Of a DNA stretch of 64,000 nucleotides, positions 55-64,000 are shown piece by piece (positions within the stretch are counted from its first letter, which is position 1; each line of letters starts with the position of its first letter). A program made the position numbers and the translations under genes. The notes under the pieces were generated by a model, which was not told the origin of the DNA, did no database searches, and was given only the letters and a program-made list of their open reading frames with translations. The DNA is from Frigoribacterium endophyticum (GTDB taxonomy: Bacteria; Actinomycetota; Actinomycetes; Actinomycetales; Microbacteriaceae), in assembly GCF_011759585.1 (NCBI RefSeq), contig NZ_JAAOYV010000002.1, positions 555,510 to 619,509 on the forward strand, read 5' to 3'.

Positions 55-104
55 GTGAGGCGAGCCTCCTGTCTAGTCGGCGACCGCGGCCCGGGAGGCG
101 CGGG

Positions 105-338
105 TCAGGAGATGCGGGCGGCCAGGCCGGCGATCTTGTCGGGGCGGAAACCGCTCCAGTGGTCGTCGTCGGCGATCACGACGGGGGCCTGCAGGTACCC
201 GAGGGCCTTGACGGTCTCGAGCGCGGCCTCGTCGGCGGTGACGTCGAGCACCTCGTACTCGATGCCCTTGTTGTCGAGCGCACGGTAGGTCGCGGTGCAC
301 TGGACGCAGGACGGCTTGGTGTAGACGGTGATGGCCAT
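105..338 (-). CDS. nrdH: NrdH glutaredoxin-like redoxin
   Basis: This 77-residue cytoplasmic redoxin donates electrons to class Ib ribonucleotide reductase (NrdEF) and is normally reduced by thioredoxin reductase. The active-site motif CVQC is at residues 11-14, and the NrdH-specific tail motif WSGFRPDKI is near residue 61. Length is normal for the family. The ATG at 338 has AGGGGA about 7 nt upstream. It is the first gene of the nrdHI(EF) operon, with nrdI 50 bp downstream. The upstream region carries two NrdR-like boxes, the nearer of which overlaps a likely -10 (TAGTAT, 440-435), so dATP/ATP-sensing repression by NrdR is expected. Confidence 0.95.
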   Translation of the reverse strand: MAITVYTKPSCVQCTATYRALDNKGIEYEVLDVTADEAALETVKALGYLQAPVVIADDDHWSGFRPDKIAGLAARIS

Positions 339-436
339 GGGATCCCCTGTGTTCTGGGCCGACCCGGGGGGTCGGACGCGGTGGTTCTGGAGCAGTTCTG
401 GGGCTGCAGGCTCAGTGCCTGCGGCGACTCGTCGAT

Positions 437-482
437 ACTACATCTTGTGGCTGGGACTGGAGCCACCAACTAGATGCGGTGT
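437..482 (-). promoter_or_regulatory. Pair of NrdR-like boxes before nrdH
   Basis: Two related elements, ACTACATCTTGTGG at 437-450 and, on the other strand, ACACCGCATCTAGTT at 482-468, share an ATCT(A/T)GT core. Their centres are about 29 bp apart, close to the roughly three helical turns usual for paired NrdR boxes. Box 1 overlaps the likely nrdH -10 element TAGTAT. Assignment rests on position before nrdHI and resemblance to actinobacterial NrdR boxes. Confidence 0.6.
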
Positions 483-495
483 TACACGGTTGTCA

Positions 496-582
496 TTATC
501 CACAGCCCCGCCCACAGGTTGTGAACAGATCCGAGGCGGTTATCCCCTGATCCGGCGGTGCTTGTCCCCACCTTTCTCCACA
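496..582. promoter_or_regulatory. Cluster of DnaA-box-like 9-mers
   Basis: A perfect TTATCCACA lies at 496-504. Near matches are TTATCCCCT (540-548), TTGTCCCCA (562-570) and TTCTCCACA (574-582). All four lie within 90 bp between nrdH and the divergent MFS gene. One could arise by chance; the clustering is less likely to. No dnaA or dnaN lies nearby, so this is not the standard origin; regulation of nrd by DnaA or DnaA titration are the likelier roles. Confidence 0.4.
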
Positions 583-658
583 CCACCGACACTCACGCCC
601 CCGTGCCCCCCGTTCGGGCCGTCGGCGTGTCGTGGGCCGGTCGTAGACTCGACTCCTC

Positions 659-1867: not shown

Positions 1868-1895
1868 CCCGCGACTCCGGTGCCATGATCGAGGG

Positions 1896-6854: not shown

Positions 6855-7050
6855 GGTGAGTCGATCCTGCCCCATCGACCGGGCCCGCGCCTCCGCCCGG
6901 GGCGGGAGAGCCGTCACGGGGCCGGGGGGCGACCCCGTGACGGGCCCTCGCCACGGACCCTGAACCGCCCCGAGGTGAGGACTCCTCGATGGTGCCACGA
7001 ACGGATCGGTTCGGCAAACGACCGAGGGAGGCGTGACGCCGGGAGACGAG

Positions 7051-7272: not shown

Positions 7273-7421
7273 ACCGCAGAGGACAGTGTTCGTTAGATCC
7301 CTCTGCGTCCGCTGCGCTACCGCAGAGGACAGTGTTCGTCTGATCCCGCTGCGTCCGCTGCGCTACCGCAGCGGACAGTGCTCGTCTGATCCCGCTGCGT
7401 CCGCTGCGCTACCGCAGCGGG
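7273..7421. repeat. 46-bp tandem repeat, three copies plus a partial one
   Basis: Units begin at 7273, 7319 and 7365 with period 46; a fourth begins at 7411 and breaks off. Each unit junction forms a hairpin CCGCTGCG-CTAC-CGCAGCGG (7355-7374 and 7401-7420; one mismatch at 7309-7328). The last unit includes the stop codon of the small acidic gene at 7409, so the array lies in that gene's 3' region. Confidence 0.9.
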
Positions 7422-7606: not shown

Positions 7607-7794
7607 GGCGGTCCTCTCGCTGTCGGTGGCGGCGGGGCCGGGGCCGCGCCGTCCTCGTCACGCTACCCGCGCCTCCGGCACGGCCCCCAGCGACGCCGGA
7701 CGGCCCCGACCCTGTGGGCCCTCCGCACCCCGACACGGTAAGAACGAGGAGGCGCACCCCGCGCCCCCGAGACCCCCCCCAGGAAGTGCAGACG

Positions 7795-9645: not shown

Positions 9646-11217
9646 TCAGGCGCGCAGCATCCCCGTCGTCACGAACTCCCGCACCTGCGGCAGCAGCTCG
9701 GCGGTCAGCGCGGCCTCGTCCGCCTCGAGCAGGTGCGCGAGCGCGCCGACGATCGCGCCGACGCTGAGCTCGCCGTCGCAGGCGCCCACCAGGGCCGAGA
9801 GCGCGGTGCCCGAGTCGACCCGCCGGGCGAACCCGCCGCCCTGCACGAGGGTGATCACGGTGGGGTCGTCGTTGCCGGGCCAGTAGTGGCGCTCCTCCGT
9901 GACGTCGCCGGCGACCGTCAGGCGCGTCGCGAGCAGCGCCGCGTCGTCGAGGCCGCGCAGCACCTCGACGGCGTCGAGCGTGGACGCGAGGTGAGCGCCC
10001 AGCCCGACGTCGTTCGAGCCCAGGCCCCCGAGGAGGCGCTCGGTGCGCACCAGGGGCACCGCGCCTCCGGCCGTGGGTCGCCGGAGCGTCACGTAGCCGA
10101 AGCCGACCTCGACGACGCCCCGGGCCTCGAAGTCGCCGAGCCAGGCCTCGTAGAGGCGCTCGAAGTCGTCGGTGCCGGGGCGGGTGCCCCCGTCGCGGAT
10201 CCAGGTCTCGGCGTAGGCCGCGGGGTCCTGCACCTCGCGCTCGACGACCCAGACGTCGAGGGGCACGTCGCCGCGCGAGGCCCAGTCGGCCACCGAGTAC
10301 GCCCCGCGCTTGCCCGCGGCGGCGCCCGCGCCTCCGGTCTCCCAATTGCCGAGCAGCTGCGCGACGCCGCCGGGGGCGAGGTGGGCCCCGACCTGCGCCA
10401 CGACGGAGGCGACGAGGTCGTCGCCGACCATGCCGCCGTCGCGGTACTCGTACTCGGGCACGCCGGGGGCCCGCGGCGTGATGACGAAGGGCGGGTTCGA
10501 GACGACGTGGTCGAACGTCTCGCCGGCCACGGGCTCGAACAGGCTGCCGAGGCGGAACTCGATGCCGTCGACGAGGTTGAGCGCGGCGTTGAAGGCCGCG
10601 AACTCGAGGGCCCGCCGCGAGATGTCGGTGGCGACCACGTGGCGCGCGTGGCGGGCGACGTGCAGGGCCTGGATGCCGCAGCCGGTGCCGAGGTCGAGCG
10701 CACGGTCGACGGTGCCGGGCGTCATCAGGCCGGCGAGCGTGGCCGAGGCGCCTCCCACCCCGAGCACGTGGTCCTCGCGCAGGGCGCCGCCGAGGGCGAG
10801 CTCGCCGAGGTCGGAGGTGATCCACCAGGAGGCCTCGCCGGCCGCGTCGACGAAGGCGTAGGGGCGCAGGTCGACGAGGGCGGCCACCTCGCCGTCGGGG
10901 CGTCGCTCGACGAGCCCGAGGGCCTCGGCGCCGTCCACGCCGAGCGTCGGCAGCGCCTCCGCCAGGTCGTGCGCCGGCTGCGGGACCCCGAGCACGAAGG
11001 CCAGCGCGAGGGTCGCGGCCGGCCGGAGCGACGGGTCGCGGTCGACGCTGCGGAGCAGGGCACGGCGGGCCGCCACCCGCTCGCCGCGGAACAGGGCCGC
11101 GCCGGCGGCGGCCCCCCAGGCGTCGGCGCTGCCGAGCCGGTCGACGGTGAAGTCGGCCGACGAGAGGTCGGAGCGCAGGCGGGCGAGGAGGTCGGCGTCG
11201 GTGGAGAGGAACGGCAC
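9646..11217 (-). CDS. Class I SAM-dependent methyltransferase (small-domain type)
   Basis: A 523-residue protein. The central Rossmann methyltransferase has motif I DLGTGCGIQ and motif IV NPPF (in VSNPPFVIT). NPPF is typical of enzymes that methylate exocyclic amino groups of RNA or DNA bases, or of protein glutamine, such as RsmC/RlmG/HemK relatives. About 150 N-terminal residues form a separate accessory domain, and the C-terminal third resembles the extra domain of actinobacterial homologues. GTG start at 11217, giving VPFLSTDADLL. Target not determinable. Transcribed in the same direction as the upstream beta-helix gene but separated by a terminator. Confidence 0.88.
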   Translation of the reverse strand: MPFLSTDADLLARLRSDLSSADFTVDRLGSADAWGAAAGAALFRGERVAARRALLRSVDRDPSLRPAATLALAFVLGVPQPAHDLAEALPTLGVDGAEALGLVERRPDGEVAALVDLRPYAFVDAAGEASWWITSDLGELALGGALREDHVLGVGGASATLAGLMTPGTVDRALDLGTGCGIQALHVARHARHVVATDISRRALEFAAFNAALNLVDGIEFRLGSLFEPVAGETFDHVVSNPPFVITPRAPGVPEYEYRDGGMVGDDLVASVVAQVGAHLAPGGVAQLLGNWETGGAGAAAGKRGAYSVADWASRGDVPLDVWVVEREVQDPAAYAETWIRDGGTRPGTDDFERLYEAWLGDFEARGVVEVGFGYVTLRRPTAGGAVPLVRTERLLGGLGSNDVGLGAHLASTLDAVEVLRGLDDAALLATRLTVAGDVTEERHYWPGNDDPTVITLVQGGGFARRVDSGTALSALVGACDGELSVGAIVGALAHLLEADEAALTAELLPQVREFVTTGMLRA

Positions 11218-11333: not shown

Positions 11334-12818
11334 TCAGCGGGAGCAGGCCCCGTTCGTCAGCCCGGCCCCGGCGCGCGTGCCGGCCGTGCGGCAGACGACG
11401 ACCGTGCCGACCGCGCCCTTCTGCACCCAGACCTCGTAGCCGGGCACGCCGCCGAGCACCGTGTTGTCGCGGAAGGAGTTGCCGCGCCCCCAGCCCGAGA
11501 TGACGTGCACCTGGAAGGCGTCGAGCTTCGTGCCCGTGCCGGAGTTGGCGGTGACGAGGTACCCGTCGCCCTTGACGTCGACCCACGAGTCGGCCGAGTT
11601 CTCGCCCGAGCGGCCCGCGTCGCGGAAGACGTTGCCGCTGACGACGCCGCCCGTGGTGCCCTCCTTGAGGTCGATGCCCTCGGCCGCCGTGTCGGAGATG
11701 GTGTTGCCGATGATCTGCGCGCGGTCGGAGCGGTCGGGGGTCGACGACGAGCCCATGACGCTGCCCCAGTTGCTGACGGCGCTGCCGACGTAGATGCCCT
11801 CGCCGAAGCCCGCCTTGCGGAGCCCCGTGTCGTGCACCGACGAGCCCCGGACGGTCACGTCGACGCTGTTCGTGCGGAGGTGGACGCCCTCGTCGCCGAT
11901 GCGGCCGACGTCGACGCCCTCGACGACGGTGCCGCTCGACCCGTCGAGCACGATGCCCTTCTGGGCGGTCTGCACGGTCAGGCCCGAGACGATCCACCGG
12001 TCGCCGGTCACGTGCAGGCCGTAGCCCTTCGAGACGCTGCCGGTGGTCAGCACGGCGGCCCGGGAGCCGGTGAGGCGGATCGGCTGGCCAGCCGTGCCGT
12101 CGGCCGCGGCCCGGAAGGTGCCGGTGTACGTGCCGTCACGGAGCGCGATCGTCTGGCCCGGCCGCGCCGCCGCCAGCGCCGCGGTGAGGCCCGCCGACGT
12201 CGACACCGTCACCGTCGTCGCCGCCGGCGTCGCCACGGGCGACGTCGAGGACGCGGGAGGCGCGGGCGAGGCCACCGGGACGGGTGCCGGAGCAGGGGTC
12301 GGTGCGGGAGCGGGAGCGGGGACCGGTGCCGGCGCGGGAGCGGGAGCGGGAACCGGTGCCGGCGCGGGAAGCGGTGCCGGCACAGGAGCGGGGGTGGGTG
12401 CGGGAGCGGGAGTCGGCGAGGGCACCGGCGCGGCGACGGCCGTCGCCCGGACCGTGAACGGCACCTCGACGGCCTGGCGCCCGCCCGCCGCGGCGTCCTC
12501 CCAGCGCACGTCGAGCTCGTGGGCGCCCGGGGCCACGGCGATCGGGAAGGCGTAGGGCGCGACCTTGTCCTGGCCGAGGTAGCTCCCGTCGACCTTGACC
12601 TTGACGACGGAGCCGGCCGGGGCGTCGACCCCGAGCGTGAAGGCCCCGGTGGTCAGCGTGGCACCCGCGAGCGGCACGCCGTCGGCGGTCGCGACGGCCG
12701 TCGAGACCGCGTGCGCCGCCTCGGGCACGGTGACCGTCGCGGCCACGGTCAGCAGCACGGCGGCGCCCGCCACGGTGCTCGTCACGGCCAGCCTCCTGGT
12801 GGTGGTCGTTCGTCCCAT
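11334..12818 (-). CDS. Secreted right-handed beta-helix protein
   Basis: A 494-residue exported protein. The signal peptide (TTTTRR, hydrophobic core, AAHA) is followed by an Ig-like domain around residues 40-125, then about 60 residues of Pro-Ala repeats, then a pectate-lyase-like beta-helix of repeated GLTV/GVDV/GSSV-type rungs. The fold suits polysaccharide binding or cleavage, but no lyase catalytic set is obvious. Two ATGs are adjacent; the second (12818) is better spaced from GGGGAG. Its nearest homologues are likely extracellular carbohydrate-active or adhesin proteins. Confidence 0.85.
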   Translation of the reverse strand: MGRTTTTRRLAVTSTVAGAAVLLTVAATVTVPEAAHAVSTAVATADGVPLAGATLTTGAFTLGVDAPAGSVVKVKVDGSYLGQDKVAPYAFPIAVAPGAHELDVRWEDAAAGGRQAVEVPFTVRATAVAAPVPSPTPAPAPTPAPVPAPLPAPAPVPAPAPAPAPVPAPAPAPTPAPAPVPVASPAPPASSTSPVATPAATTVTVSTSAGLTAALAAARPGQTIALRDGTYTGTFRAAADGTAGQPIRLTGSRAAVLTTGSVSKGYGLHVTGDRWIVSGLTVQTAQKGIVLDGSSGTVVEGVDVGRIGDEGVHLRTNSVDVTVRGSSVHDTGLRKAGFGEGIYVGSAVSNWGSVMGSSSTPDRSDRAQIIGNTISDTAAEGIDLKEGTTGGVVSGNVFRDAGRSGENSADSWVDVKGDGYLVTANSGTGTKLDAFQVHVISGWGRGNSFRDNTVLGGVPGYEVWVQKGAVGTVVVCRTAGTRAGAGLTNGACSR

Positions 12819-14157: not shown

Positions 14158-14262
14158 AGCGGCCCCGCCACTCGCCCGACACGTGGTGCACCCGCCAGGA
14201 AGGCCGCGAAGCGCCCCCGCCACCCGCCCAACACGTCAGGCGCCCGCCAGGAAAGGCCGCGA
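14158..14262. repeat. 52-bp imperfect direct duplication beside tRNA-Ala
   Basis: Unit 1 (14158-14209) and unit 2 (14210-14262) share the sequence running from AGCG through CGCCAGGAA to GGCCGCGA, with a few substitutions and one indel. Unit 2 is followed by the opening bases of a third copy. No coding role is seen. Confidence 0.75.
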
Positions 14263-14294
14263 AGCGGCCCCTTCAGCTGTTCTGACAAGAGGAA

Positions 14295-14339
14295 CGGAAT
14301 GCAGAAAGGCCCGTCAGAGGCGGGCCTTTCTGCATTCCG
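14295..14339 (-). terminator. Terminator directly after tRNA-Ala
   Basis: A perfect 19-bp stem (left arm 14295-14313, right arm 14321-14339) with a 7-nt loop. It begins at the base next to the tRNA 3' end, so it must be separated from the tRNA by processing. Confidence 0.85.
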
Positions 14340-14412
14340 TGGAGCTAAGGGGATTCGAACCCCTGACCTTCTCATTGCGAACGAGACGCGCTACCAACTG
14401 CGCCATAGCCCC
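14340..14412 (-). tRNA. tRNA-Ala (anticodon CGC)
   Basis: A 73-nt cloverleaf read from 14412: acceptor GGGGCTA/TAGCTCC, D arm GCGC-AGTTGGTA-GCGC, anticodon stem TCTCG/TGAGA with loop TTCGCAA, and T arm AGGGG-TTCGAAT-CCCCT. Anticodon CGC reads the Ala codon GCG, abundant in this genome. The discriminator is A. The CCA end is not encoded and must be added. Confidence 0.97.
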
Positions 14413-15567: not shown

Positions 15568-15655
15568 GGTCACGAGGGTATGAGCGACGACGCGCCGCGG
15601 GGGCGCACCGCGCAGGTGTGTCGGTGCGGATCTGCCACGAGGAGGCGCGGGTCGG

Positions 15656-17857: not shown

Positions 17858-17928
17858 CCCCGCGCCTCCCCGCGCCGGGCCGGGCCCGGGTGCCCGCCGC
17901 CCCGTCTCCGTCGCACCGTGAGGAATCC

Positions 17929-23701: not shown

Positions 23702-23716
23702 CAGCGGGTCAGCCTG

Positions 23717-33539: not shown

Positions 33540-33695
33540 CCGGCCACCGACACGGCCGCGGCGGACCGCCCGGTCGACCCGCGCCTCCGGCGCTCCCCCC
33601 CTCTCTTCCCCTTCCGCACCTCCCCTCACCGTTCCGCCCCCAGCACAGCACCGCTCTGCCCGCTCCCCTGCTCCACCCCCTGACAGGAGAACCCC

Positions 33696-45433: not shown

Positions 45434-47077
45434 TCAGCCGACGAGCGACGCCGCCAGGTCGACGAGCGCGAGGTCCGAGCCGCGCGGCCCCACCAGGCAG
45501 AGCCCCACGGGCCCGCCCGCGACGCGCAGCAGCGGGGCCGAGACGGCGGGGCGCCCGGTGACGCCCGCGAGGCAGGTGAGGCGGAGCGTCGCCCCGCGCA
45601 CGCGGTCGACCTCCTCCGCCGAGGCGTCGAGCCGGGGCGCCGCCGACGAGGCCGACGGCAGCACGAGCACGGCGTCGCCGAGCACCGCGTCGAGGGCGCG
45701 ACGGGCCTCCGCCAGGCCGACCCGCGCCTCCTGCTCCTGCTCGGCGTCGACGCTCGCCCCGACGGCGAACCGCGCCGCGACGTCCGCGGAGAGGACACCG
45801 GGGCGCGCCTCGATCCAGCGGCCGTGGCTGCGCCAGGCCTCGGCGGCCTGCACGACCCGGAACAGCCCGAAGAGCACGCCGAGGTCGCCGACCTCCACGG
45901 CCGCGGGCCCGGGCAGCCGCCCGTCGCCGACGAGCGCGTCGACGACCTCGGTGAAGGCCGCGGCGACGTCGGGCTCGACCGCCGCGAGCACCCGGGGATC
46001 GACGACGACCGATGGCCCCGACGACCCCGACGGCCCGCGCCCCGTCGGCACGGAGGGAGCCGCCCCGAGCGACGCCTCCGCCGCCGCCCGCAGCGTCGCC
46101 GCGTCGCGCGTCAGCCAGCCCACCGTGTCGAAGCTCGGCGCCAGCGGCAGCAGACCCTCCCGCGGCACGGCGCCGTGCGACGTCCGCAGCCCCCAGAGCC
46201 CCTGGTACGAGGCGGGGACCCGCACCGAGCCTCCCGTGTCCGTGCCGAGCCCGACGTCGGCCTGCCCCAGCGCGACCGCCGAGGCGGGGCCGCTCGACGA
46301 GCCGCCCGGCAGCGCACCCGGCACGGCCCCGTTGGGCGGGGTGCCCCACGACCCGTTGCGGCCGGCGACGCTGTAGGCGAACTCGTCGGTCTGCGCCAGG
46401 CCGGCGACGCTCGCCCCGGCGGCGAGCAGCAGCTCGACGGCCGGGGCCGACGCCGTCTCGACCGGCTGCTCGGCGAGCCAGGCGGGCACGCCCGCGCCGA
46501 CCGCGTGCCCCGCCACGGCGAAGAGGTCCTTGACGGCGACGGTCCGCCCCGCCAGCGGCCCCGAGGAGGCGCGGGCCGGCACCAGGGGCCCGCCCACCAC
46601 CCGCCACACCCGCGTGTCGACCGCGGGGCGCGGGGCCTGCACGTGCGCGGTCGCGATCCGCCACGGCTGCCCGGCCCCGCGCCTCCACAGCTGGGTGACG
46701 ACGCCGCGGCCGCCGCCGGCCGGCGCGTTGACGGTGACCACGACGGCCGAGCCGGGGTCGAGCACGCGCACGTGGCACTCCTCGACGCGGCGGGCCGGGG
46801 CACCGCCCCGCCGGGCCCGGAACGCCGTGATCGCGTCGTGCCCGACGAGCACGCCCTGCGCGTCGACGCGCACGCTGCCCGGGCCGGGCTCGAACGCGTC
46901 GGCCAGGGCCGCGGCGTCGTCGCGGCGCAGGGCGTCCTCGTAGGCGACGACGGCGTCGAGCAGGCCCTCGGGCAGCTCGCCGCCCTCGAGCGTGGTGACC
47001 GGCAGCGGGGCGACCGGCAGCGGGGCGACCGGCCCCGGGGCGACCGGCCCTGGGCCGGGAGCGGTCTCGTCAGGCAC
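45434..47077 (-). CDS. AtzH-like/amidase-signature fusion protein
   Basis: A 547-residue fusion. Residues 35-150 form an AtzH/DUF3225 (NTF2-like) domain (LPEGLLDAVVAYEDALRRDD, VLVGHDAITAFRA). Residues 160-547 are an amidase-signature enzyme with K183 (VAVKDLF), Ser in GGSSSG (260-262) and S284 (TDTGGSVR). In cyanuric-acid breakdown AtzH and AtzE are separate parts of the 1-carboxybiuret hydrolase. In this purine island the fused enzyme could cut oxalurate, a carbamoyl compound or a short-chain amide. GTG start overlaps the stop of the formamidase-family gene by 8 bp. Confidence 0.9.
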   Translation of the reverse strand: MPDETAPGPGPVAPGPVAPLPVAPLPVTTLEGGELPEGLLDAVVAYEDALRRDDAAALADAFEPGPGSVRVDAQGVLVGHDAITAFRARRGGAPARRVEECHVRVLDPGSAVVVTVNAPAGGGRGVVTQLWRRGAGQPWRIATAHVQAPRPAVDTRVWRVVGGPLVPARASSGPLAGRTVAVKDLFAVAGHAVGAGVPAWLAEQPVETASAPAVELLLAAGASVAGLAQTDEFAYSVAGRNGSWGTPPNGAVPGALPGGSSSGPASAVALGQADVGLGTDTGGSVRVPASYQGLWGLRTSHGAVPREGLLPLAPSFDTVGWLTRDAATLRAAAEASLGAAPSVPTGRGPSGSSGPSVVVDPRVLAAVEPDVAAAFTEVVDALVGDGRLPGPAAVEVGDLGVLFGLFRVVQAAEAWRSHGRWIEARPGVLSADVAARFAVGASVDAEQEQEARVGLAEARRALDAVLGDAVLVLPSASSAAPRLDASAEEVDRVRGATLRLTCLAGVTGRPAVSAPLLRVAGGPVGLCLVGPRGSDLALVDLAASLVG

Positions 47078-50035: not shown

Positions 50036-50362
50036 TCAGCTGCCGCGGTACGTCGTGAAGGCGAACGGGCTGAGCAGCAGCGGCACGTGGTGGTGGGCCG
50101 ACGCGTCGGCGAGCTGGAAGTCCAGCACGACGCGCGGCCAGAAGGAGTCGCGGCCCGAGGCCTCGAAGTACGCTGCGGTGTGGAACGTGAGCCGGTAGAC
50201 CCCCGCGACCAGCGCCTCCGGCCCGAGGTCCGCGACGCGACCGTCGGCGTCGGTGACGCCCTGGCCGAGCAGCGTGCCCGCCTCGTCGCTGAGGTCGACG
50301 GCGACGCCGGCGGCCGGGCGGCCGAGCGCCGCGTCGAGCACGTGCGTCGTGACGTGACTCAC
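50036..50362 (-). CDS. uraH: 5-Hydroxyisourate hydrolase
   Basis: A 108-residue transthyretin-like enzyme hydrolysing 5-hydroxyisourate to OHCU. HVLDAALGRPAAG opens the fold (catalytic His and Arg contexts), FWPRV is present, and the C-terminal tetrapeptide is YRGS, the hallmark that separates the enzyme from transthyretin. GTG start overlaps the uraD stop (GTGA). Confidence 0.96.
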   Translation of the reverse strand: MSHVTTHVLDAALGRPAAGVAVDLSDEAGTLLGQGVTDADGRVADLGPEALVAGVYRLTFHTAAYFEASGRDSFWPRVVLDFQLADASAHHHVPLLLSPFAFTTYRGS

Positions 50363-51834: not shown

Positions 51835-54731
51835 GCACCCCAGGAGCAGCCAGCACCAGCGCCCCCGGCAGCACCAGCGCCCCCGGCGGCGGCGTGACCG
51901 GCCCGGCGACCGCCAGCGAGGCGGCCGTGCCGAGCCGCGCCTCCGGCAGGACGGTCTCGTTCGAGGTCGACGGGCGACCGGTCGACGCGCCGGTGGTACC
52001 CGGCCAGGTGCTGCGCACGGTGCTCCGCGAGGCCGGCGTGCACTCGGTGAAGAAGGGCTGTGACGCGGGCGACTGCGGCGCCTGCTCGGTGCTCGTCGAC
52101 GGCGAGCCCGTGCACTCGTGCATCTGGCCGGCGCACCGCCTCGACGGCCGCGCCGTCACCACGGCCGCCGGCCTCGGCACGGTCGAGCACCCGCACCCCG
52201 TGCAGCAGGCCTTCGTCGACGCCGCGGGCTTCCAGTGCGGCTTCTGCACCGCGGGCATGGTCGTGACCGCGTCGACCCTCACCGAGGCCGACCACGACGA
52301 CCTGCCCCGGCTGCTCAAGGGAAACCTCTGCCGCTGCACCGGCTACCGGGCGATCGGCGACGCGATCTGCGGCGTCGCCAACACGACGACGCCGGCCGCG
52401 GGCACGGCCGTCGGCCAGTCGACGACGGCCCCGGCCGCCCTCCGGGTCGTGACCGGCGGCGAGGAGTACACCCTCGACTTCCGCTCGCCGACGAAGCTGC
52501 TGCACCTCGCCGTGCTCGGCAGCCCCCATCCGCACGCGCGCGTCGTGTCGATCGACGTCTCGGCCGCCGAGGCCATGCCGGGCGTGCACGCCGTACTCAC
52601 GCACCACGACTCCCCCGCGACGCTGTTCTCGACCGGCCGCCACGAAGACCGGGAGGACGACCCCGACGACTCGCTCGTGATCGACCCCGTGCTGCGGTTC
52701 CGCGGCCAGCGCGTCGCGGCCGTCGTCGCCGAGTCGGTGCGCGAGGCGCGCCTCGCCCTCGACGCCGTCGTCGTCGAGTACGAGCTGCTGCCCGCCGTCT
52801 TCGACCCCGAGCAGGCCCGACGCCCCGGCGCCCCGCTGCTGCACGGCGAGAAGACGAGCGAGGTCTCGCGCATCGCCTTCCCCGAGCGCAACACCGTGGC
52901 CGCGATGCACGGCGAGACGGGCGACGTCGAGGCCGCGCTCGCCGCCGCCGACGTCACCGTCGAGGGCACGTGGCGCACGCAGCGGGTAAGCCACGCGGCG
53001 CTCGAGACGCACGCCACGCGGGGGTGGCTCGACGACGACGGGCGCCTCGTGCTCCGCACCTCGAGCCAGGTGCCCTTCCTCGTCCGTGACGAGGTGGCGC
53101 ACGTCTTCGGCCTGCCGCAGGAGTCCGTCCGGGTCTTCACCAAGCGGGTCGGCGGCGGGTTCGGCGGCAAGCAGGAGCTCCTCACCGAAGACCTCGTGAC
53201 GCTCGCCGTGCTGCGCACCGGCCGGGCCGTGCAGTACGAGATGAGCCGCGACGACGAGTTCACGGTCGTGCCGACCCGGCACCCGATGCGCGTGCGCGTG
53301 CGGCTCGGGGCCACCCGCGACGGCCTGCTCACGGCGATGCACGTCGACCAGCTGATGGACACGGGCGCCTACGGCAACCACGGCATCGGGGTCATGTACC
53401 ACTCGGTGCACGAGTCGACCTCCGTGTACCGCTGCGAGAACAAGCGGGTCGACGCCGAGAGCGTCTACACGAACAACCTGCCGTCGGGGGCGTTCCGCGG
53501 CTACGGCCTCGGCCAGGTCGTCTTCGGCGTCGAGTCGGCGATGGACGAGCTGGCCCGCGAGCTCGGCCTCGACCCGTTCGAGCTGCGCCGCCGCAACGTC
53601 GTCGTGCCGGGCGACCCCATGGTCGTCACCGACCCCGACGAGGAGACGGACCTGCTCTACGGCAGCTACGGCCTCGACCAGTGCCTCGACCTCGTCGAGC
53701 GGGCCCTGGCGACCCCGAGCGACGACCCCGCGGTGGCCGCCGCCGACGTCGTGCCCGAGGGCCCGAGCTGGAGCGTCGGCACCGGCATGGCCCTCGCGAT
53801 GATCGCGACCATGCCGCCCCGCGGCCACTTCGCCGACACGTCGGTCGCGCTGCGGCCCGACGGCGGGTACGACGTGGCCGTCGGCACGGCCGAGTTCGGC
53901 AACGGCACGACCACGGTGCACGGCCAGCTGGTCGCGACCGTGCTCGGCACCACGCCCGACCGCGTGACGATCCGGCAGAGCGACACCGACGTGGCGCGCT
54001 ACGACACCGGCGCCTTCGGGTCGGCCGGGGTCGTCGTGGCCGGCAAGGCGCTGCTCGCCGCGGCGCAGAAGCTGCGGGCCGCGATGGTGGAGCGGGCGCT
54101 CGACCTCACCGGAGGCGCGGCGCCGGTCGTCGACGGAGGCCCGCTGCCCGAGGTGGTGACCGGGGGCGTCGTCGTGACCCGCGCCTCCCGCACCCCCGGG
54201 GGCGACCCCGAGCACGTCGTCGTCGACGCCGGGCAGCTGCTCGCCGCCGGTCCGCTCTCGGCCGACGGCAGCCACGACGGCACGCCGCGCTCGGTCGCGT
54301 TCAACGTGCACGCGTTCCGCGTCGCCGTCGACCGGTCGACCGGAGAGGTGCGCATGCTGCGCTCGATCCAGGCGGCCGACGCCGGCACCGTGCTGAACCC
54401 CGAGCAGCTGCGCGGGCAGGTCGAGGGCGGCACCGCGCAGGCGATCGGCACGGCGCTCTACGAGGAGGTCCTGCTCGACGAGGAGGGGCGGGTCACCACG
54501 ACCGCGCTCCGCAACTACCGCGTGCCCAAGTTCTCGGACGTGCCGCGCACCGAGGTGCTCTTCGCGGCGACCCACGACGACCTCGGGCCGCTCGGCGCGA
54601 AGTCGATGAGCGAGGCGCCGTACAACCCGGTCGCCCCGGCGCTCGCGAACGCGATCCGGGACGCCCTGGGCGTGCGGCCGCACGAGCTGCCCATGTCGCG
54701 CGACCGGCTCTGGCGGCTCGCGCGGGGGTGA
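51831..54731 (+). CDS. Xanthine dehydrogenase, fused [2Fe-2S] and molybdopterin subunits
   Basis: A 966-residue fusion that hydroxylates hypoxanthine/xanthine to urate. After a low-complexity N-terminus of about 35 residues, the ferredoxin-like domain has GCDAGDCGACSV and the helical Fe-S domain has QCGFCTAGM with LCRCTGYR (eight Cys, two clusters). From about residue 200 the Mo domains follow, with VGGGFGGKQ, SGAFRGYGLGQ and, near the end, LGAKSMSEAPYNPVAP containing the catalytic Glu. Small and large chains are usually separate in bacteria; here only FAD is separate. It needs the MocA-like protein at 44648. Confidence 0.95.
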   Translation: MSTPGAASTSAPGSTSAPGGGVTGPATASEAAVPSRASGRTVSFEVDGRPVDAPVVPGQVLRTVLREAGVHSVKKGCDAGDCGACSVLVDGEPVHSCIWPAHRLDGRAVTTAAGLGTVEHPHPVQQAFVDAAGFQCGFCTAGMVVTASTLTEADHDDLPRLLKGNLCRCTGYRAIGDAICGVANTTTPAAGTAVGQSTTAPAALRVVTGGEEYTLDFRSPTKLLHLAVLGSPHPHARVVSIDVSAAEAMPGVHAVLTHHDSPATLFSTGRHEDREDDPDDSLVIDPVLRFRGQRVAAVVAESVREARLALDAVVVEYELLPAVFDPEQARRPGAPLLHGEKTSEVSRIAFPERNTVAAMHGETGDVEAALAAADVTVEGTWRTQRVSHAALETHATRGWLDDDGRLVLRTSSQVPFLVRDEVAHVFGLPQESVRVFTKRVGGGFGGKQELLTEDLVTLAVLRTGRAVQYEMSRDDEFTVVPTRHPMRVRVRLGATRDGLLTAMHVDQLMDTGAYGNHGIGVMYHSVHESTSVYRCENKRVDAESVYTNNLPSGAFRGYGLGQVVFGVESAMDELARELGLDPFELRRRNVVVPGDPMVVTDPDEETDLLYGSYGLDQCLDLVERALATPSDDPAVAAADVVPEGPSWSVGTGMALAMIATMPPRGHFADTSVALRPDGGYDVAVGTAEFGNGTTTVHGQLVATVLGTTPDRVTIRQSDTDVARYDTGAFGSAGVVVAGKALLAAAQKLRAAMVERALDLTGGAAPVVDGGPLPEVVTGGVVVTRASRTPGGDPEHVVVDAGQLLAAGPLSADGSHDGTPRSVAFNVHAFRVAVDRSTGEVRMLRSIQAADAGTVLNPEQLRGQVEGGTAQAIGTALYEEVLLDEEGRVTTTALRNYRVPKFSDVPRTEVLFAATHDDLGPLGAKSMSEAPYNPVAPALANAIRDALGVRPHELPMSRDRLWRLARG

Positions 54732-55591: not shown

Positions 55592-55666
55592 CCCCCGCGC
55601 CTCCGGACCGGCCCGTCGCTCGGCGGTTCGAGAGCGCCCTCGGGGCCTCGAGGAGGGTCCGCCGTC

Positions 55667-57046: not shown

Positions 57047-57778
57047 TCAGCGCGACCTCCCGACCCGGTGCACCAGCATCGCCAGGTCGACCCGCCCCTC
57101 CACCTCGAGCTTCTCGTAGACGTGGCCGACGTGCGTCTTCACCGTCGCGAGCGTGATGAAGAGGTCGGCCGCGACCTGCGCGTTCGTGAGGCCGCGCGCC
57201 ACCGCCCGGGCGACCTCCGCCTCCCGCTCGGTGAGCCGCTCGAAGCGCTCGACCTCGCCGACGACCGCGGCGGCGTCCCCGCCGTCGCCCGGGCCCCCGC
57301 CCTGCCCCGCTCCCTGCCCCGCTCCCCCGCCGCGGCCGGCCGCCACCTCGATCACCCGGTCGAGCACCGACGGCGAGAGCGTCGAGCGCCCCTCGGCGGC
57401 CGCGTGCACGGCGGCGACCAGCTCGGCCGGCGGCGTGTCCTTGAGCACGAAGCCACGGGCACCGCACCGCAGAGCCCCGAGCACCATCTCGTCGGCGTCG
57501 AACGTCGTCAGCACGAGCACCGCGAGGTCGGGCCGTCGCCGCAGCTCGCGGGCGGTGGCGTCGAGGCCGTTGCAGCGCGGCATGCGGATGTCCATCAGCA
57601 CGACGTCGGGCCGGGTGCGGGCGATGACGGCCTCGGCGGCCAGGCCGTCCTCCGCCTGGCCCACCACCTCGATGCCCGGGTCGCCGCCGAGCAGCAGCAG
57701 CAGGCCCTCGCGCACCAGCCGCTCGTCGTCGACGACGACGACGCGCACGGGGGCCGGCCCCGGGGAGTCGCGGGTCAC
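57047..57778 (-). CDS. LuxR-type response regulator
   Basis: A 243-residue NarL/FixJ-family regulator. The receiver domain has the acidic pair in VVVDDE, the phospho-acceptor Asp in VLMDIRMP, Thr in LTTFD and Lys in VLKD. A Gly-rich linker (residues about 145-170) leads to the HTH LTEREAEVARAVARGLTNAQVAADLFITLATVKTHVGHVYEKL (split). GTG at 57778 overlaps the histidine kinase stop in the corrected frame (GTGA), favouring it over the GTG at 57787. Partner is the frameshifted kinase upstream. Confidence 0.93.
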   Translation of the reverse strand: MTRDSPGPAPVRVVVVDDERLVREGLLLLLGGDPGIEVVGQAEDGLAAEAVIARTRPDVVLMDIRMPRCNGLDATARELRRRPDLAVLVLTTFDADEMVLGALRCGARGFVLKDTPPAELVAAVHAAAEGRSTLSPSVLDRVIEVAAGRGGGAGQGAGQGGGPGDGGDAAAVVGEVERFERLTEREAEVARAVARGLTNAQVAADLFITLATVKTHVGHVYEKLEVEGRVDLAMLVHRVGRSR

Positions 57779-59238: not shown

Positions 59239-61890
59239 TCATCCGGTGTTCTGCAGCCCCGCGGCGATCCCGTTCACGGTGAGCAGGAGGAGGCGGTGGT
59301 CGGCGTCGGCAGGGTCCTTCTCGACCGCGCGGCGGATGCCCCGCAGCGCCCGCAGCTGCAGCAGCGACAGCGCGTCGACGTACGGGCTGCGGAGGCGCAC
59401 CGAGCGCTTGAGCACCGGTCGCCCCTCGAGCACCTCGGCGTGGCCGCTCACGCGGAGCACCCACTCGCGGGTCAGCGCCATCTCGGTGAGCACCCGGTCG
59501 GCGAGGTCGGTGCGCTCGGCGAGGCCGAGGTACTCGCGGGCGATGTGGTCGTCGGTCTTGGCGAACGACAGCTCGACGTTCTTGATCATCGTCGTGAAGA
59601 GCGGCCACGACGCGTAGGCCTCGCGGAGCAGGTCGACGTCGCCCACCGCGGCGAGCGCGGAGCCGAGGCCGTACCAGCCGGCGAGGTTGATGCGCGCCTG
59701 GGTCCAGGCGAACACCCACGGGATCGCCCGGAGGTCCTCCAGGGACTCGACCGAGAGGCCGCGCCGCGCGGGGCGGGAGCCGAGCGCGAGCAGGCCCACC
59801 TCCTCCATCGGGGTGACCGTCGCGAACCACTGGGCGAAGCCGTCCGCCTTGACGAGGCCGAAGAAGGCGTCCTTCGAGGCGGCGTCCATCGCGGTCGCGA
59901 GCGGGGCGAAGCGCTCCGCCGCGGCGGCGTTGCGCGCGGCCGTCGCGGGGCTCGACGCCTGCAGGGTCGCGGCGGCCATCTGCTCGATGTGCCGGGCGGC
60001 GATGGTCTTGTTGCCGTAGTGCGCCAGGATCACCTCGCCCTGCTCCGTGATCTTGAACCGCCCCTCCACCGATCCGGGCGGCTGGGCACGGACGGCCTCG
60101 TGGGCCGGCCCGCCGCCGCGGCCCATCGAACCGCCGCGGCCGTGGAAGAGAGTCAGCACGATGTCGTTGCGCTCGGCCCACTCGGCGATGCGCGCCTGGG
60201 CGTCGTACAGCGCGAAGCCGGCGCTGACCGGCCCGACGTCCTTCGACGAGTCGGAGTAGCCGAGCATGACCTCGAGCCGGCGGCCGTTCGCGGCGAGGCG
60301 ACGCTGGACGGGCTCCGTCTGCAGGGCCTCCTCGAGGATGCGCGTCGACGCTTCGAGGTCCGCGAACGTCTCGAAGAGCGGGATCACGTCGAGCACGGGC
60401 GCCGCCTCGGCCGAGCCGAGCGCGAGCTCGGCCAGCTCGACGACGTTCGCCAGGTCGGCCGACGACTGCGTGAACGAGACGATGTAGCGGGAGGCGGCCT
60501 GGCGCCCGAAGCGCTGCTGCAGCTCGGCGACCACGCGGAACACCTCCAGCACCTCGACGGTGGTGGGGCTGAGCTCGCCGCCGGCCCGCGCCTCCTCGAG
60601 GGCGGTGCGGTGCACCTGCGAGTGCTGGCGCACCTCGAGCTCGGCGAGGTGGAACCCGAAGGTCTCGACCTGCCACACGAGGTTCTGCAGCTCGCCGTTC
60701 GCGGCACGGTCGGCCCCCGCGGCCCGCAGCGAGCGCTGCACGGTGCGGAGGTCGTCGAGCAGCTCGTCGGGGCGGCCGTAGGCGAGGGGCTCCTGGCCGA
60801 GGCGGGTCGCCTCGAGGCGGGCCGCGACGAACAGCAGCACGCGGCGGTGGCTCTCGTTCGGCGAGCGGATGCCGATGCGCGAGGCGACGTCGGGCTCGAG
60901 CTGCCGCTGCTGCTCGGCGAGCGCCACGAGGCCCTCGTCGCCGGGGGTGTCGGCCTCGTCGAGGGTGAGGGTGCTGCCGATGCGCGTGGTCGCGCGCTGC
61001 AGGCCGATCAGCACGTGCTCGGAGGCGATCTCGGCCGCGGCCCGCGTGACCTCGGCGGTGACGTGCGGGTTGCCGTCGCGGTCGCCGCCGATCCAGCTGC
61101 TGAGGCGCATGAAGGCGGGGGCGCGCACCGGCTCACGGCCGGCGCCGTCGCCCTGGAGGCGGTCGTCGAGCAGGCGGTAGACGGTCGGCACGACCTCGAA
61201 GAGCGTCTGGTCGAAGACGTTCATCGCGGTGCGGACCTCGTCGAGCGGGGTCGGGCGCGTCGTGCGGAGCGGCGAGGTGCGCCACAGCGTGTCGATCTCC
61301 TCCAGGAGGCGGCGCTGGGTCTCGGCGCCGGTCACCTCGTTGGCGGAGATGTCGCGCTCGGCGAGCAGGTCGCTGATGCGGCGGATGGTCGACGCGACGG
61401 CGCGGCGGCGGGCCTCCGTCGGGTGCGCCGTGAAGACGGGCTGGAAGCGCAGCTCGGCGAGGCGCCGCGACGCCTCGTCGGCGCCGAGCTCGTCGACCAG
61501 CCGCTCGACGGCGGCCGGCAGGGAGTCGGGGCCCGAGCCGCGGCGCGTCAGCACGCGCACGCGGTGGTGCTCCTCCGCGAGGTTGCTGAGGTGGAAGTAG
61601 CAGGTGAAGGCCCGGGCGACCTGCTCGGCGCGCTCGTGGTCGAGCGACTCGACGAGGTCGCGGGCGCGGGCCCTGGCCACCTCGTCGGTGTCGCCCTCGT
61701 ACGCGCCGATCACGGCGGCGCGCAGGGCCTCGACGTCGGCGAGCAGCTCGGGGCCGCCGGCCTCGGTGAGCACGCGCCCGAGGAGGCTGCCGAGGAAGCT
61801 CACGTCGGCGCGGAGGGCCGCGTCGACCTCGCCCCGGACGTCGTCGCGGGAGGTGCCGTCAGGGCGTCGGGGGGTCTCGGTGTCCGTCAC
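59239..61890 (-). CDS. ppc: Phosphoenolpyruvate carboxylase
   Basis: An 883-residue anaplerotic enzyme making oxaloacetate from PEP and bicarbonate. Conserved blocks: FTAHPTEARRR with the catalytic His, SWIGGDRDGNPHVT, EVMLGYSDSSKDVG, LFHGRGGSMGRGGGP with the mobile loop, and the terminal NGIAAGLQNTG, diagnostic for PEPC. Length is typical of actinobacterial enzymes. GTG at 61890 lies 6 nt after CAGAAT, a weak leaderless -10. Confidence 0.97.
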   Translation of the reverse strand: MTDTETPRRPDGTSRDDVRGEVDAALRADVSFLGSLLGRVLTEAGGPELLADVEALRAAVIGAYEGDTDEVARARARDLVESLDHERAEQVARAFTCYFHLSNLAEEHHRVRVLTRRGSGPDSLPAAVERLVDELGADEASRRLAELRFQPVFTAHPTEARRRAVASTIRRISDLLAERDISANEVTGAETQRRLLEEIDTLWRTSPLRTTRPTPLDEVRTAMNVFDQTLFEVVPTVYRLLDDRLQGDGAGREPVRAPAFMRLSSWIGGDRDGNPHVTAEVTRAAAEIASEHVLIGLQRATTRIGSTLTLDEADTPGDEGLVALAEQQRQLEPDVASRIGIRSPNESHRRVLLFVAARLEATRLGQEPLAYGRPDELLDDLRTVQRSLRAAGADRAANGELQNLVWQVETFGFHLAELEVRQHSQVHRTALEEARAGGELSPTTVEVLEVFRVVAELQQRFGRQAASRYIVSFTQSSADLANVVELAELALGSAEAAPVLDVIPLFETFADLEASTRILEEALQTEPVQRRLAANGRRLEVMLGYSDSSKDVGPVSAGFALYDAQARIAEWAERNDIVLTLFHGRGGSMGRGGGPAHEAVRAQPPGSVEGRFKITEQGEVILAHYGNKTIAARHIEQMAAATLQASSPATAARNAAAAERFAPLATAMDAASKDAFFGLVKADGFAQWFATVTPMEEVGLLALGSRPARRGLSVESLEDLRAIPWVFAWTQARINLAGWYGLGSALAAVGDVDLLREAYASWPLFTTMIKNVELSFAKTDDHIAREYLGLAERTDLADRVLTEMALTREWVLRVSGHAEVLEGRPVLKRSVRLRSPYVDALSLLQLRALRGIRRAVEKDPADADHRLLLLTVNGIAAGLQNTG

Positions 61891-61950: not shown

Positions 61951-61962
61951 TAGGGTGGCGGC
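61951..61962 (+). promoter_or_regulatory. Leaderless promoter of the NIPSNAP-like gene
   Basis: TAGGGT (61951-61956) then GGCGGC and ATG. The arrangement is almost identical to that of the TetR gene at 40277-40289. Confidence 0.5.
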
Positions 61963-62298
61963 ATGAGCCTCGAGCCCTCCGCGAAGACCGTCCAGCTGCG
62001 CCGCTACGACCTGGTGCCGGGGGTGCTCGACGACTTCCTGGCGTGGTTCCACGCCGAGATCGTGCCCGTGCGCACCGCGCAGGGCTTCACGGTCGAGTTC
62101 GCGTACGCCGACCGCGAGGCCGAGCAGTTCACCTGGGCGGTCAGCGTGCCCGGCGACGCCGCGGCCTTCACCGCCCTCGAGCAGACGTACCTGGCCAGCG
62201 AGGGCCGGGCCGCGGCGTTCGCCGGCCAGCCGACCCGCGTCGCCGTCTCGCACGTCGGCCTCGTCGAGACCGTCGTCGAGGCCGGCAGCCGCGCGTAG
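61963..62298 (+). CDS. Small NIPSNAP/dimeric alpha-beta-barrel-like protein
   Basis: A 111-residue protein. VQLRRYDLVPGVLDDFLAWFHAEIVPVRTAQGFTVEFAYADRE (split, residues about 10-52) has the pattern of NIPSNAP or antibiotic-monooxygenase-like ferredoxin-fold dimers. No catalytic residues can be named. It is transcribed divergently from ppc, whose start is 73 bp away. Function unknown. Confidence 0.8.
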   Translation: MSLEPSAKTVQLRRYDLVPGVLDDFLAWFHAEIVPVRTAQGFTVEFAYADREAEQFTWAVSVPGDAAAFTALEQTYLASEGRAAAFAGQPTRVAVSHVGLVETVVEAGSRA

Positions 62299-62358
62299 CG
62301 CTGCGCCTGCGCCTGCACCTGCACCCACCGCCGGTCGGGGGCGGCAGGCGGCAGTGCG

Positions 62359-63225
62359 TCAGGCGGCGGAGACGCCGACCATCGCCGCGCTGCGCTCCCA
62401 GAGGCCGCGCGAGAGCTCGCGGTCGCCGGCCTGCGCCGCGACGCGGCCGGGCGCCTTGAGGCGGTCGAAGTAGTTGCCGCTCGGGGCGGGCACCGAGGCC
62501 GCGGCCGCGAGCCGGACGAGGGGCTCGGCGCCCTGCTCGGTGCTGATCGCGAGGTTCTTGGCGAGGCTGACGACGGGGCCGCCGCCGCCGAAGCTCGAGG
62601 CGACGAAGCCGGGGTGGAAGGCGAAGGCGTCCACCGCGGTGCCGCGGAGGCGGCGCGCCAGCTCCCGCGTGAAGAGCACGTTCGCGAGCTTCGAGGTGCC
62701 GTACGCCCGCATGCCGCCGAGCCAGGGGCCGGTCGAGGTGTCGAGGTCGTCGAGGTCGACGCGGCCCATGAGGTTGCCGGCGCTCGATGTCTGGACGATG
62801 CGGACGGCGCCCGGCGGGACGTCCTGCGCGGTCTCGGTGAGCCGCGGCAGCAGGATCGAGGTCAGCAGGAAGGCCGCGAGGTGGTTGCTCTGCAGCGTCG
62901 TCTCGAAGCCGTCGCCGGTGGTGCCGCGCTCGGGCATGAGGCCGCCGGCGTTGTTCGCCAGCACGTGGATGCGCGGGTGGTCGGCGAGCAGCTGCTCGCC
63001 GAGCGAGCGCACGGCGGCGAGGTCGGTGAAGTCGGCGAGGTAGGCCTGGCCGCCGACCTCGTCGGCGACGCGGCGGGTGCGCTCGGCGTTGCGCCCGACG
63101 ACGGCGACGGTGGCGCCGAGGCCCGACAGGGCGACCGCCGCAGCGCGGCCGATGCCCGAGCTCGCGCCGGTGATCACGACCGTGCGGTCGTCGAGTCGGG
63201 CGGGGGCGGGCAGCGTGACGGTCAT
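62359..63225 (-). CDS. SDR-family oxidoreductase (retinol-dehydrogenase-like)
   Basis: A 288-residue SDR. TGASSGIGRAAA, NNAGG, Ser in IVQTSSAGNL and YGTSK are all intact. VGRNAER after the second strand suggests NADP preference. The long C-terminal half with FHPGFVASSF is typical of the WWOX/retinol-dehydrogenase-like group. The ATG at 63225 (MTVTLP) is chosen because TATCGT (63238-63233) is 7 nt upstream; a GTG three codons earlier overlaps this element. Substrate unknown. Confidence 0.9.
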   Translation of the reverse strand: MTVTLPAPARLDDRTVVITGASSGIGRAAAVALSGLGATVAVVGRNAERTRRVADEVGGQAYLADFTDLAAVRSLGEQLLADHPRIHVLANNAGGLMPERGTTGDGFETTLQSNHLAAFLLTSILLPRLTETAQDVPPGAVRIVQTSSAGNLMGRVDLDDLDTSTGPWLGGMRAYGTSKLANVLFTRELARRLRGTAVDAFAFHPGFVASSFGGGGPVVSLAKNLAISTEQGAEPLVRLAAAASVPAPSGNYFDRLKAPGRVAAQAGDRELSRGLWERSAAMVGVSAA

Positions 63226-63309
63226 GCCGTGCACGATAGCCGCGCGCCCCCCGCCCCGCCTGGGTGCGGGAGGAGGGGCGCGGGGCGGAGCACGGGAGGC
63301 GCGGTGCGG

Positions 63310-63735
63310 CTAGCGGCGGCGCTTCCGGTCGCGCCAGGCTCCGGTCGACCAGAGCGCCCAGGCGATCAGCAGCGGCTGGCCGAGCAGGCGCAGGCCGCGC
63401 TTGGTGTCGGTGTCGAGCCCGAACGCGTCGCGGTGGTGGATGAGCTGCGCGATGTTGCCGGGGAAGATCACCGTGAAGAAGATCGCGGCGACCCAGCCGA
63501 CCGTGACGCGACGGCCGCGCAGGGCGATCAGCGCGGCGCCGAGCGAGATCTCGGCGACGCCCGAGGCGAGCACCGTGACGTCCTCGCTGAGCGGGACGAA
63601 CTCGGGCACCTGCGCGCGGAAGTCCTCGCGGCCGAAGGTGAGGTGGCTGGTGCCGGCGAAGACCAGCGCGGAGCCGAGCAGCACCCGGCCGATCGTGCGG
63701 GGCACCGAGGTGCGGGGGAGCTTGCGCGAGGTCAT
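63310..63735 (-). CDS. DoxX-like membrane protein
   Basis: A 141-residue protein with four hydrophobic segments. IGRVLLGSALVFAGTSHLTFGREDFRAQVP (split) resembles the DoxX/MauE group. Members associate with oxidases or handle membrane redox stress, but the role here is unknown. The ATG at 63735 overlaps the stop of the upstream gene (ATGA), so it is the second gene of an operon. Confidence 0.85.
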   Translation of the reverse strand: MTSRKLPRTSVPRTIGRVLLGSALVFAGTSHLTFGREDFRAQVPEFVPLSEDVTVLASGVAEISLGAALIALRGRRVTVGWVAAIFFTVIFPGNIAQLIHHRDAFGLDTDTKRGLRLLGQPLLIAWALWSTGAWRDRKRRR

Positions 63736-64000
63736 GGTCGGTCCGTTCGGTCGGTGCGGCGGGAGTCGGGGTGCGGGTCGGTGTCGCCCACGGCGCCGTC
63801 GAGCGGGGCGACGGGCGCCCCCGTGGCGACGGCGGCGGCGGTGGCGGTCTCGCCGGCGGCGGACGTGGCGGCGGGCGCTCCTGCAGTGCGGCCCCGCGCC
63901 TCCGCCTCGAGCCGGTCGGCCTCCTCGCCGGTGACGGCCTCGCCGCGGGCGACCATGCCGGCCACGTCGCTGAGGGCGATCTGCGGCAGGAAGAGCGCGA
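63732..64000 (-). CDS. C-terminal part of an unidentified protein
   Basis: The reading frame is open from the right edge to a stop at 63732. It encodes 88 residues, beginning ALFLPQIALSDVAGMVARGEAVTGEEADRLEAEA and ending in an Ala/Thr- and then Asp/Arg-rich tail (SRRTDRTDRP). The tail is probably disordered. The true start is outside the window and I do not recognise the family. An internal ATG at 63965 is not the likely start because coding continues upstream of it. Confidence 0.6.
   Translation of the reverse strand, partial: ALFLPQIALSDVAGMVARGEAVTGEEADRLEAEARGRTAGAPAATSAAGETATAAAVATGAPVAPLDGAVGDTDPHPDSRRTDRTDRP

Follow-up and report, generated by a model that had tools for sequence, protein, structure and literature searches.

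Short words that tag self-DNA for uptake are known, according to excerpts of a 2025 paper, only from the Neisseriaceae and the Pasteurellaceae (PMC12616744). In the excerpted account of the Neisseriaceae DNA uptake sequence (DUS), a short word is present thousands of times, both within genes and in permissive gaps, forms inverted pairs at terminators and exists in lineage dialects, and the genome of Simonsiella muelleri carries two dialects one base apart (PMC3630211). The Pasteurellaceae uptake signal sequence (USS) is described, in excerpts again, as a short core with weaker flanking positions and two lineage types, accumulating via point mutations (PMC12616744, PMC1939737). Here we analysed 64,000 nucleotides of the actinobacterium Frigoribacterium endophyticum (contig NZ_JAAOYV010000002.1, positions 555,510 to 619,509; hereafter the window) and the genomes of its relatives, and describe a decamer, GGAGGCGCGG, that is like the DUS in the respects listed above, including two spellings one base apart in the window's species, and like the USS in its core, its weaker flanks and its lineage types. 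An exact-word search of the literature gave, judged by title and among the papers listed, none on actinobacterial genomes, and searches on uptake sequences in the Actinobacteria gave one review. At a probability of roughly one in two, the sequence data suggest that GGAGGCGCGG is the core of a DUS-like self-DNA tag. A wider proposal, for which the odds fall just short of even, is that Frigoribacterium and Curtobacterium may possess a third, independently evolved sequence-specific DNA-uptake system, the first in Gram-positive bacteria, whose dialects switch inside a genus and in which the species of the window is evolving a second spelling.

The window contains 40 exact copies of GGAGGCGCGG, 18 on the + strand and 22 on the - strand, spanning 94 to 63903, whereas 100 dinucleotide shuffles of the window gave a mean of 2.48 and a maximum of 6, and a third-order Markov model predicts 1.76. 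An earlier note on this DNA had counted 39 copies (17 and 22); one had been missed, but the enrichment it reported is firm. The note rightly saw that a third of the copies take a longer form (13 of 40 are the 12-mer CCGGAGGCGCGG, which contains GGAGGCGCGG), that there is no clear strand bias and that the DNA comes from the Microbacteriaceae, the genus being Frigoribacterium. The GalU gene of the window has its best matches in that genus, which supplies 12 of the 80 matched loci listed, at 95-98% identity; Curtobacterium and Frondihabitans come next. Its statement that the word is placed equally in gaps does not hold: 17 of the 40 copies are intergenic, although gaps make up ~11% of the window, which gives 2.38 copies per kb in gaps and 0.40 in genes, as assigned by our own gene caller. 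The copies of GGAGGCGCGG and then those of the variant GGAGTCGCGG are listed below; ten sites were inspected for sharing against 12 relatives.

94-103, +, gap
2730-2739, +, gap, directly past a stop codon
3335-3344, -, gap, convergent genes either side
6885-6894, -, gap; in 0 of 3 aligned relatives
7667-7676, -, gap; in 0 of 6 aligned relatives
10059-10068, -, genic; in 0 of 11 aligned relatives
10326-10335, -, genic; exact in 5 of 11 aligned relatives
12256-12265, +, genic, antisense; no alignment with relatives
15641-15650, +, gap; in 0 of 11 relatives, poor alignability
17860-17869, -, gap, directly past a stop codon; in 0 of 12 relatives, alignment gapped
19038-19047, +, gap; in 0 of 11 relatives, six of which have GGAGGCTCGG there
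19171-19180, -, gap; exact in 7 of 11 aligned relatives despite poorly aligning flanks
25827-25836, -, genic, antisense; kept exactly by 8 of the 10 relatives that align, one base off in the remaining two
28659-28668, +, first of a four-copy cluster in one gap
28683-28692, +, same gap cluster
28697-28706, +, same gap cluster
28721-28730, +, same gap cluster
29244-29253, +, genic, antisense
31696-31705, -, genic, antisense
33579-33588, -, gap
37536-37545, +, genic
39230-39239, +, genic
39951-39960, -, genic, antisense
42732-42741, +, genic, antisense
43284-43293, -, genic
43302-43311, -, genic
43894-43903, +, genic, antisense
44894-44903, -, genic, antisense
45034-45043, +, genic
45722-45731, -, genic
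46565-46574, +, genic, antisense
46677-46686, -, genic
51935-51944, -, genic, antisense
54111-54120, +, genic
54179-54188, -, genic, antisense
55595-55604, -, gap, convergent genes either side, directly past a stop codon
57793-57802, -, gap
60586-60595, -, genic
63295-63304, +, gap
63894-63903, -, open frame at the window edge
1869-1878, -, variant GGAGTCGCGG
24740-24749, +, variant GGAGTCGCGG
24933-24942, -, variant GGAGTCGCGG
50144-50153, +, variant GGAGTCGCGG
57764-57773, +, variant GGAGTCGCGG

The cluster at 28659-28734 places four copies in 72 bases on a single strand and perhaps reflects a local amplification of the word.

Enrichment beyond the window, which the note had set as a test, was found in the whole genome of the species (G000; 3,324,001 bases in 6 contigs), which contains 1304 copies, 655 forward and 649 reverse, compared with 146 (81 + 65) of the word read backwards, our composition control for genome counts; other whole genomes had similarly even strand counts. 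In a 384-kb sample of this genome GGAGGCGCGG is the commonest 10-mer and ranks first of the 340 anagrams of itself that occur there; it likewise stands above every occurring anagram in the samples of two further Frigoribacterium species, G015 and G007. Codon usage was controlled in samples of 384-400 kb per species by three kinds of synonymous-codon shuffle with 60 replicates each. The coding copies numbered 100 in G000 (46 sense, 54 antisense; shuffle means 8.5-11.9), so that the excess over a codon-aware expectation for which the note had asked is present, and 96 in G015 (37 and 59; 7.0-10.7) and 83 in G007 (45 and 38; 8.5-12.1), an excess of 7-14 fold within genes. Pooled over the three samples, 128 copies were sense and 151 antisense. 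The small contigs C3-C5 of G000 have a chromosomal-looking gene content and contain the word, and contig C6 (5.9 kb, 55% G+C) contains neither the word nor any called gene; the portions examined were 40 kb of the 160 kb of C3 and 40 kb of the 73 kb of C4, with C5 and C6 in full. Two 20-kb stretches of G015 with 66.4% and 69.1% G+C (L092 and L101), which we read as putative acquired islands from their gene content and G+C, had 0 copies. DUS and USS are expected to be depleted in recently acquired DNA.

The word is confined to a small part of the family. All 16 Frigoribacterium genomes contained 842-1725 copies (controls 41-148), and among 74 other genomes of the family only G046 and G069 reached hundreds of copies above control; among 59 genomes at the level of the order the largest excess was 68 against a control of 41. 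In a wider survey, which sampled 398 genomes of the family evenly out of a larger group, raised counts outside Frigoribacterium were seen in Curtobacterium (g32; 79-688 copies) and in one species of the genus g55, and the remaining genomes were at or near control, with some small counts slightly higher. Seven of the nine sampled Curtobacterium genomes were clearly raised (216-688 copies), and three named Curtobacterium genomes had 597, 514 and 220 copies, the last being C. ammoniigenes. The g55 genome, G069, had 399 copies of GGAGGCGCGG against a control of 142, together with a weaker related word, GGAGGCGGT (50 vs 11.6), and a mild rise of another spelling, GGAGGCTCG (239 vs 141). In three Frondihabitans genomes GGAGGCGCGG was below control. 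As a separate observation, 120 kb of Frondihabitans sucicola (L172-L177) contained 58 copies of GCAGGATC against 17.1 Markov-expected (3.4 fold), possibly an unrelated enriched word, for which no clear extension was seen.

The spelling changes between close relatives, and the existence of such dialects is firm. GGAGTCGCGG, one base from GGAGGCGCGG, occurs 373 times in the window's genome, against a control of 42, and 16-39 times in each of the 15 sister genomes, so that among the 16 Frigoribacterium genomes it is enriched only in the window's species; the 3' flank of its copies matches that of the main word. In two Curtobacterium genomes, G409 and G435, GGAGGCTCG reached 613 and 725 copies (controls 66 and 82) while GGAGGCGCGG was near control (79 vs 65 and 94 vs 117). 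The converse was seen in five of the seven other Curtobacterium genomes (G046, G192, G299, G341 and G459), with GGAGGCTCG at 65-78 (controls 53-82) and GGAGGCGCGG at 456-688. G249 enriches both words, G378 had 216 copies of GGAGGCGCGG with GGAGGCTCG at 99 against a control of 74, and in C. pusillum (G152) and C. flaccumfaciens (G153) GGAGGCGCGG was raised and GGAGGCTCG was not. The Curtobacterium copies have a 5' extension, CGGMCK. A second repeated word, GAATCGCGCGTAGG, was noticed in G153 (L129-L148), with 14 copies on both strands of 400 kb and ~0 expected.

In Frigoribacterium the word extends to (A)GGAGGCGCGG-G-K-C-GGG (K standing for G or T), and the flank consensus is similar in genes and gaps. 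The A at -1 is present in 74% (G015) and 70% (G007) of all copies, in 77% and 89% of those in gaps and in 71% and 60% of those in genes, and is weak in G000. The 3' flank from +10 to +15 reads G, T or G, C, then GGG, with a T at +16 in G015 only. The final two letters of the core tolerate some change, as GGAGGCGCTG and GGAGGCGCGC are in excess. The USS flank is an A/T-rich tract, whereas the Frigoribacterium flank is not.

The word was 3-6 times denser in gaps than in genes (1.32 vs 0.30 copies per kb in G015, 0.83 vs 0.25 in G007). The density was highest between convergent genes (2.25 per kb in G015, 1.25 in G007, 4.52 in the window) and lowest between divergent genes in G015 (0.44) and the window (0.48); as an exception, divergent gaps of G007 had 0.93 and its tandem gaps were lowest at 0.65. 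In the samples of G015 and G007 there were 12 inverted +/- pairs 26-31 bases apart, all within 50 bases of a gene 3' end and six of them between convergent genes; no T run was seen by eye after these 12 pairs. The spacing after collapsing close copies was near random, with a coefficient of variation of 0.95-1.05.

We compared the conservation of sites using 812 pairwise alignments with a mean identity of 82%, each pair being counted both ways, so that the comparisons share phylogeny and are not independent; cells with flank identity <50% were dropped, and cells with gaps (62 coding and 43 intergenic motif cells) were set aside. Of the coding comparisons, 215 of 446 kept GGAGGCGCGG exactly, and of the intergenic ones 91 of 148, so that it is better conserved than composition-matched 10-mers (731/3892 and 43/307); for random 10-mers the figures were 10576/34253 and 759/2567. 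The flanks were less conserved at motif sites (identity 0.77 coding, 0.73 intergenic) than at random sites (0.86 and 0.81). At the three window sites shared by some relatives (25827, 19171 and 10326), the relatives without a match mostly differ by substitution, e.g., to GGAGGCACGG or GGGGGCGCGG. Insertion as a mobile unit was considered and rejected in view of these substitutions; several of the six unshared sites lie within gapped or poorly aligned stretches, which decide nothing on this point.

Genes that could take up DNA are present. ComEC was found in all 16 Frigoribacterium genomes, and ComEA adjoins it in both loci examined; in the window's genome the domain models of ComEA and ComEC pass their cut-offs and the full-length models fall below theirs. 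In this genome, the only one tested, a TadA-family ATPase was above its cut-off. Micrococcus luteus is an actinobacterium with a similar set, ComEA/ComEC and a Tad/Flp pilus, and its Tad pili serve transformation; the term “uptake sequence” is absent from its competence paper (PMC4322843). G000 also has a type IVa pilus locus adjoining rpoB/rpoC, in which PilT and PilM are over their cut-offs and PilB is just under (634 vs 676 bits), with PilC, a prepilin peptidase, a major pilin and three minor pilin-like proteins; the names PilN, PilO, PilV, PilW and PilX were given by position and resemblance. The minor pilin-like proteins diverge fast, being 35-51% identical between G000 and G015/G007 where PilB is 90-92% identical, which is a lead only in the search for a receptor; no candidate receptor stood out. 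Type IVa PilT was above cut-off in 13 of 16 Frigoribacterium genomes, 9 of 9 of Curtobacterium and 2 of 2 of g55. In G015 there is in addition a second pilus-type ATPase cluster (G015:C1:2393161-2397935) with a weak prepilin-like match (E 0.12); three Frigoribacterium genomes were checked, and only this one had it.

Four features that characterise DUS and USS are found here: a copy excess, both orientations without polarity, a preference for gaps and gene ends with hairpin-capable pairs, and dialects sharing a core. Because of the density, the strand neutrality, the lineage dialects, the inverted pairs at gene 3' ends, the conservation of sites and the com genes, the uptake reading is strengthened, although the support is circumstantial, and we infer that uptake is the driving force. 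DNA would enter via a surface pilus, ComEA and ComEC, and a postulated surface protein would favour fragments carrying the word. The favoured fragments would recombine into the chromosome, and the word would spread wherever harm is small; biased uptake plus recombination would then act as a molecular drive. A changed preference of the receptor would shift the whole genome to a new spelling and so produce the dialects. The known systems differ from this one in several respects. The DUS is an unrelated sequence from another phylum and has a receptor, ComP, and Curtobacterium copies are chiefly intergenic.

Several observations weigh against uptake. ComEC was also found in 10 of 14 control genomes and is hence common. 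PilT and PilB are missing from G002, G003 and G006, which are rich in the word (1421, 1562 and 1415 copies), and of 12 genomes sampled in other genera that lack the word, 7 had PilT above cut-off; unless the three Frigoribacterium genomes lost it recently, the word can do without the type IVa pilus, and a link to type IVa pili alone is weakened. Judged by title, full-text searches gave no report of competence for Curtobacterium or Frigoribacterium, or for Microbacteriaceae with type IV pili. Of the ten window sites compared with the 12 relatives, three were shared by some, six by none and one was unaligned; because six occur in no aligned relative, some copies turn over fast or those sites are new. 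Most Curtobacterium copies are intergenic, many of them as arms of ~46-base palindromes in gaps, and the coding excess there is weak (3 vs 1.1 in G459, 8 vs 2.1 in G409). These two genomes were used instead of G153 (12 observed, 4-6 expected), whose codon test was set aside because of poor gene calls (71% coding); split pilus ATPase matches suggest frameshifts in that assembly. The density of the word climbs with local G+C in G000 and G015, and in G007 just the lowest fifth is poor. The dnaA region is not rich in the word: per 20 kb it had 5, 4 and 1 copies, where the genomes average ~8, 9 and 6; in Neisseria the uptake word is reportedly in excess in genome-maintenance genes. Finally, words with one mismatch to GGAGGCGCGG showed a 1.45-1.57 fold excess, compared with 0.75-1.50 for three control words. 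Excerpts of the literature state that biased uptake predicts a graded excess over mismatch classes (PMC1939737), which is a feature of the USS not clearly seen here.

The earlier note had named DNA uptake, Chi-like sites and a chromosome-organising motif as readings, and a non-polar version of the last remains a live rival, if a less likely one: GGAGGCGCGG might be the genome-wide binding site of an intracellular DNA-binding protein that acts on the nucleoid or in segregation, repair or recombination, kept by selection or biased gene conversion, the dialects being changes of the protein. Strand neutrality, conservation and dialects would suit any evolving sequence-specific protein, and the near-random spacing and the three word-rich genomes without type IVa pili fit such a binder as well as they fit uptake. 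However, a private second spelling at hundreds of sites in one species, a switch in two Curtobacterium genomes and the absence from most of the family would be unusual for a housekeeping protein, and by eye the copy counts in the sampled G015 and G007 stretches were not ordered by distance from the origin.

It is improbable, though less easily set aside in Curtobacterium, that the word is the arm of intergenic palindromes, either terminators or a repeat like the repetitive extragenic palindromic (REP) sequences, with single copies as leftovers. The Curtobacterium gap palindromes are as this explanation predicts, with 15 of 19 copies of G459 intergenic, as is the position of the 12 Frigoribacterium pairs; such pairs at terminators are also described for the DUS in the excerpted account (PMC3630211). 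In Frigoribacterium, however, 103 of 178 copies in G015 and 85 of 129 in G007 were wholly genic, and 87 and 80 of these had no other copy within 150 bases; the excess over codon shuffles concerns such coding copies. The window has no inverted pair closer than 68 bases. REP sequences and REPINs, their paired form, resemble our word in being GGAG-led with inverted pairs in gaps. They come with a REP-associated tyrosine transposase (RAYT), and the Y1 (RAYT) model PF01797 matched in 0 of 31 genomes, whereas the same model matched in 5 of 14 control genomes; with the mostly solitary genic copies, this led us to reject REP/REPIN with RAYT.

A polar motif, that is, a Chi-like recombination signal or a segregation signal like the FtsK-orienting polar sequences (KOPS), is very improbable. 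The density of GGAGGCGCGG is within the range of Chi sites, but in 20 stretches each from the single-contig genomes G015 and G007 (dnaA was located in 16 of 16 genomes) the leading and lagging strands had 89 and 89 copies in G015 and 64 and 65 in G007. The equal counts argue against Chi, KOPS and similar signals, including the architecture imparting sequences (AIMS), for which a strand bias relative to replication is expected. Hardly any credence is left for a by-product of composition or codon usage in a 72-75% G+C genome: the rise with local G+C in two of three samples and the mild one-mismatch excess of control words speak for it, but none of the controls (dinucleotide, Markov, reversed word, anagram and synonymous codon) reproduces the enrichment, which most of the family lacks. 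Equally hard to credit is a G-quadruplex-forming element, since GGAGGCGCGGGTCGGG does have four short G runs but, although quadruplex loops are free to vary, most one-base changes at non-G letters of the core occur as seldom as those within the G runs (exceptions include C for A at the third letter).

Other features of the window were noted in passing.

7273-7417, gap, 3.2 tandem copies of a 46-base unit (94% alike)
14158-14271, 52-base unit in 2.2 copies, beside a tRNA-Ala(CGC) gene at 14339-14412
19210-22893, -, 1227-residue protein, possibly a helicase-nuclease, with weak matches to the REase_MTES_1575 nuclease and AAA_12 domains, both under curated cut-offs
23702-23814, 17-base tandem array, 6.6 copies, directly behind a transposase-like (HTH_Tnp_1) short open frame at 23303-23701

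If GGAGGCGCGG is an uptake tag, it would be a third case and lie in the Actinobacteria, suggesting that such tags evolve repeatedly, Gram-positive cells included, and natural competence would be predicted for two genera, Frigoribacterium and Curtobacterium. The dialects constitute a natural experiment: because the tag varies between sister genomes, a search for the receptor can follow what varies along with it, and tag-matched and mismatched transfer is measurable. Sexual isolation by uptake tags could then be studied over dozens of sequenced strains. Even without uptake, a sequence-specific protein with ~1000 sites per genome, spelled differently in sister species, would, in our judgement, be remarkable for this family.

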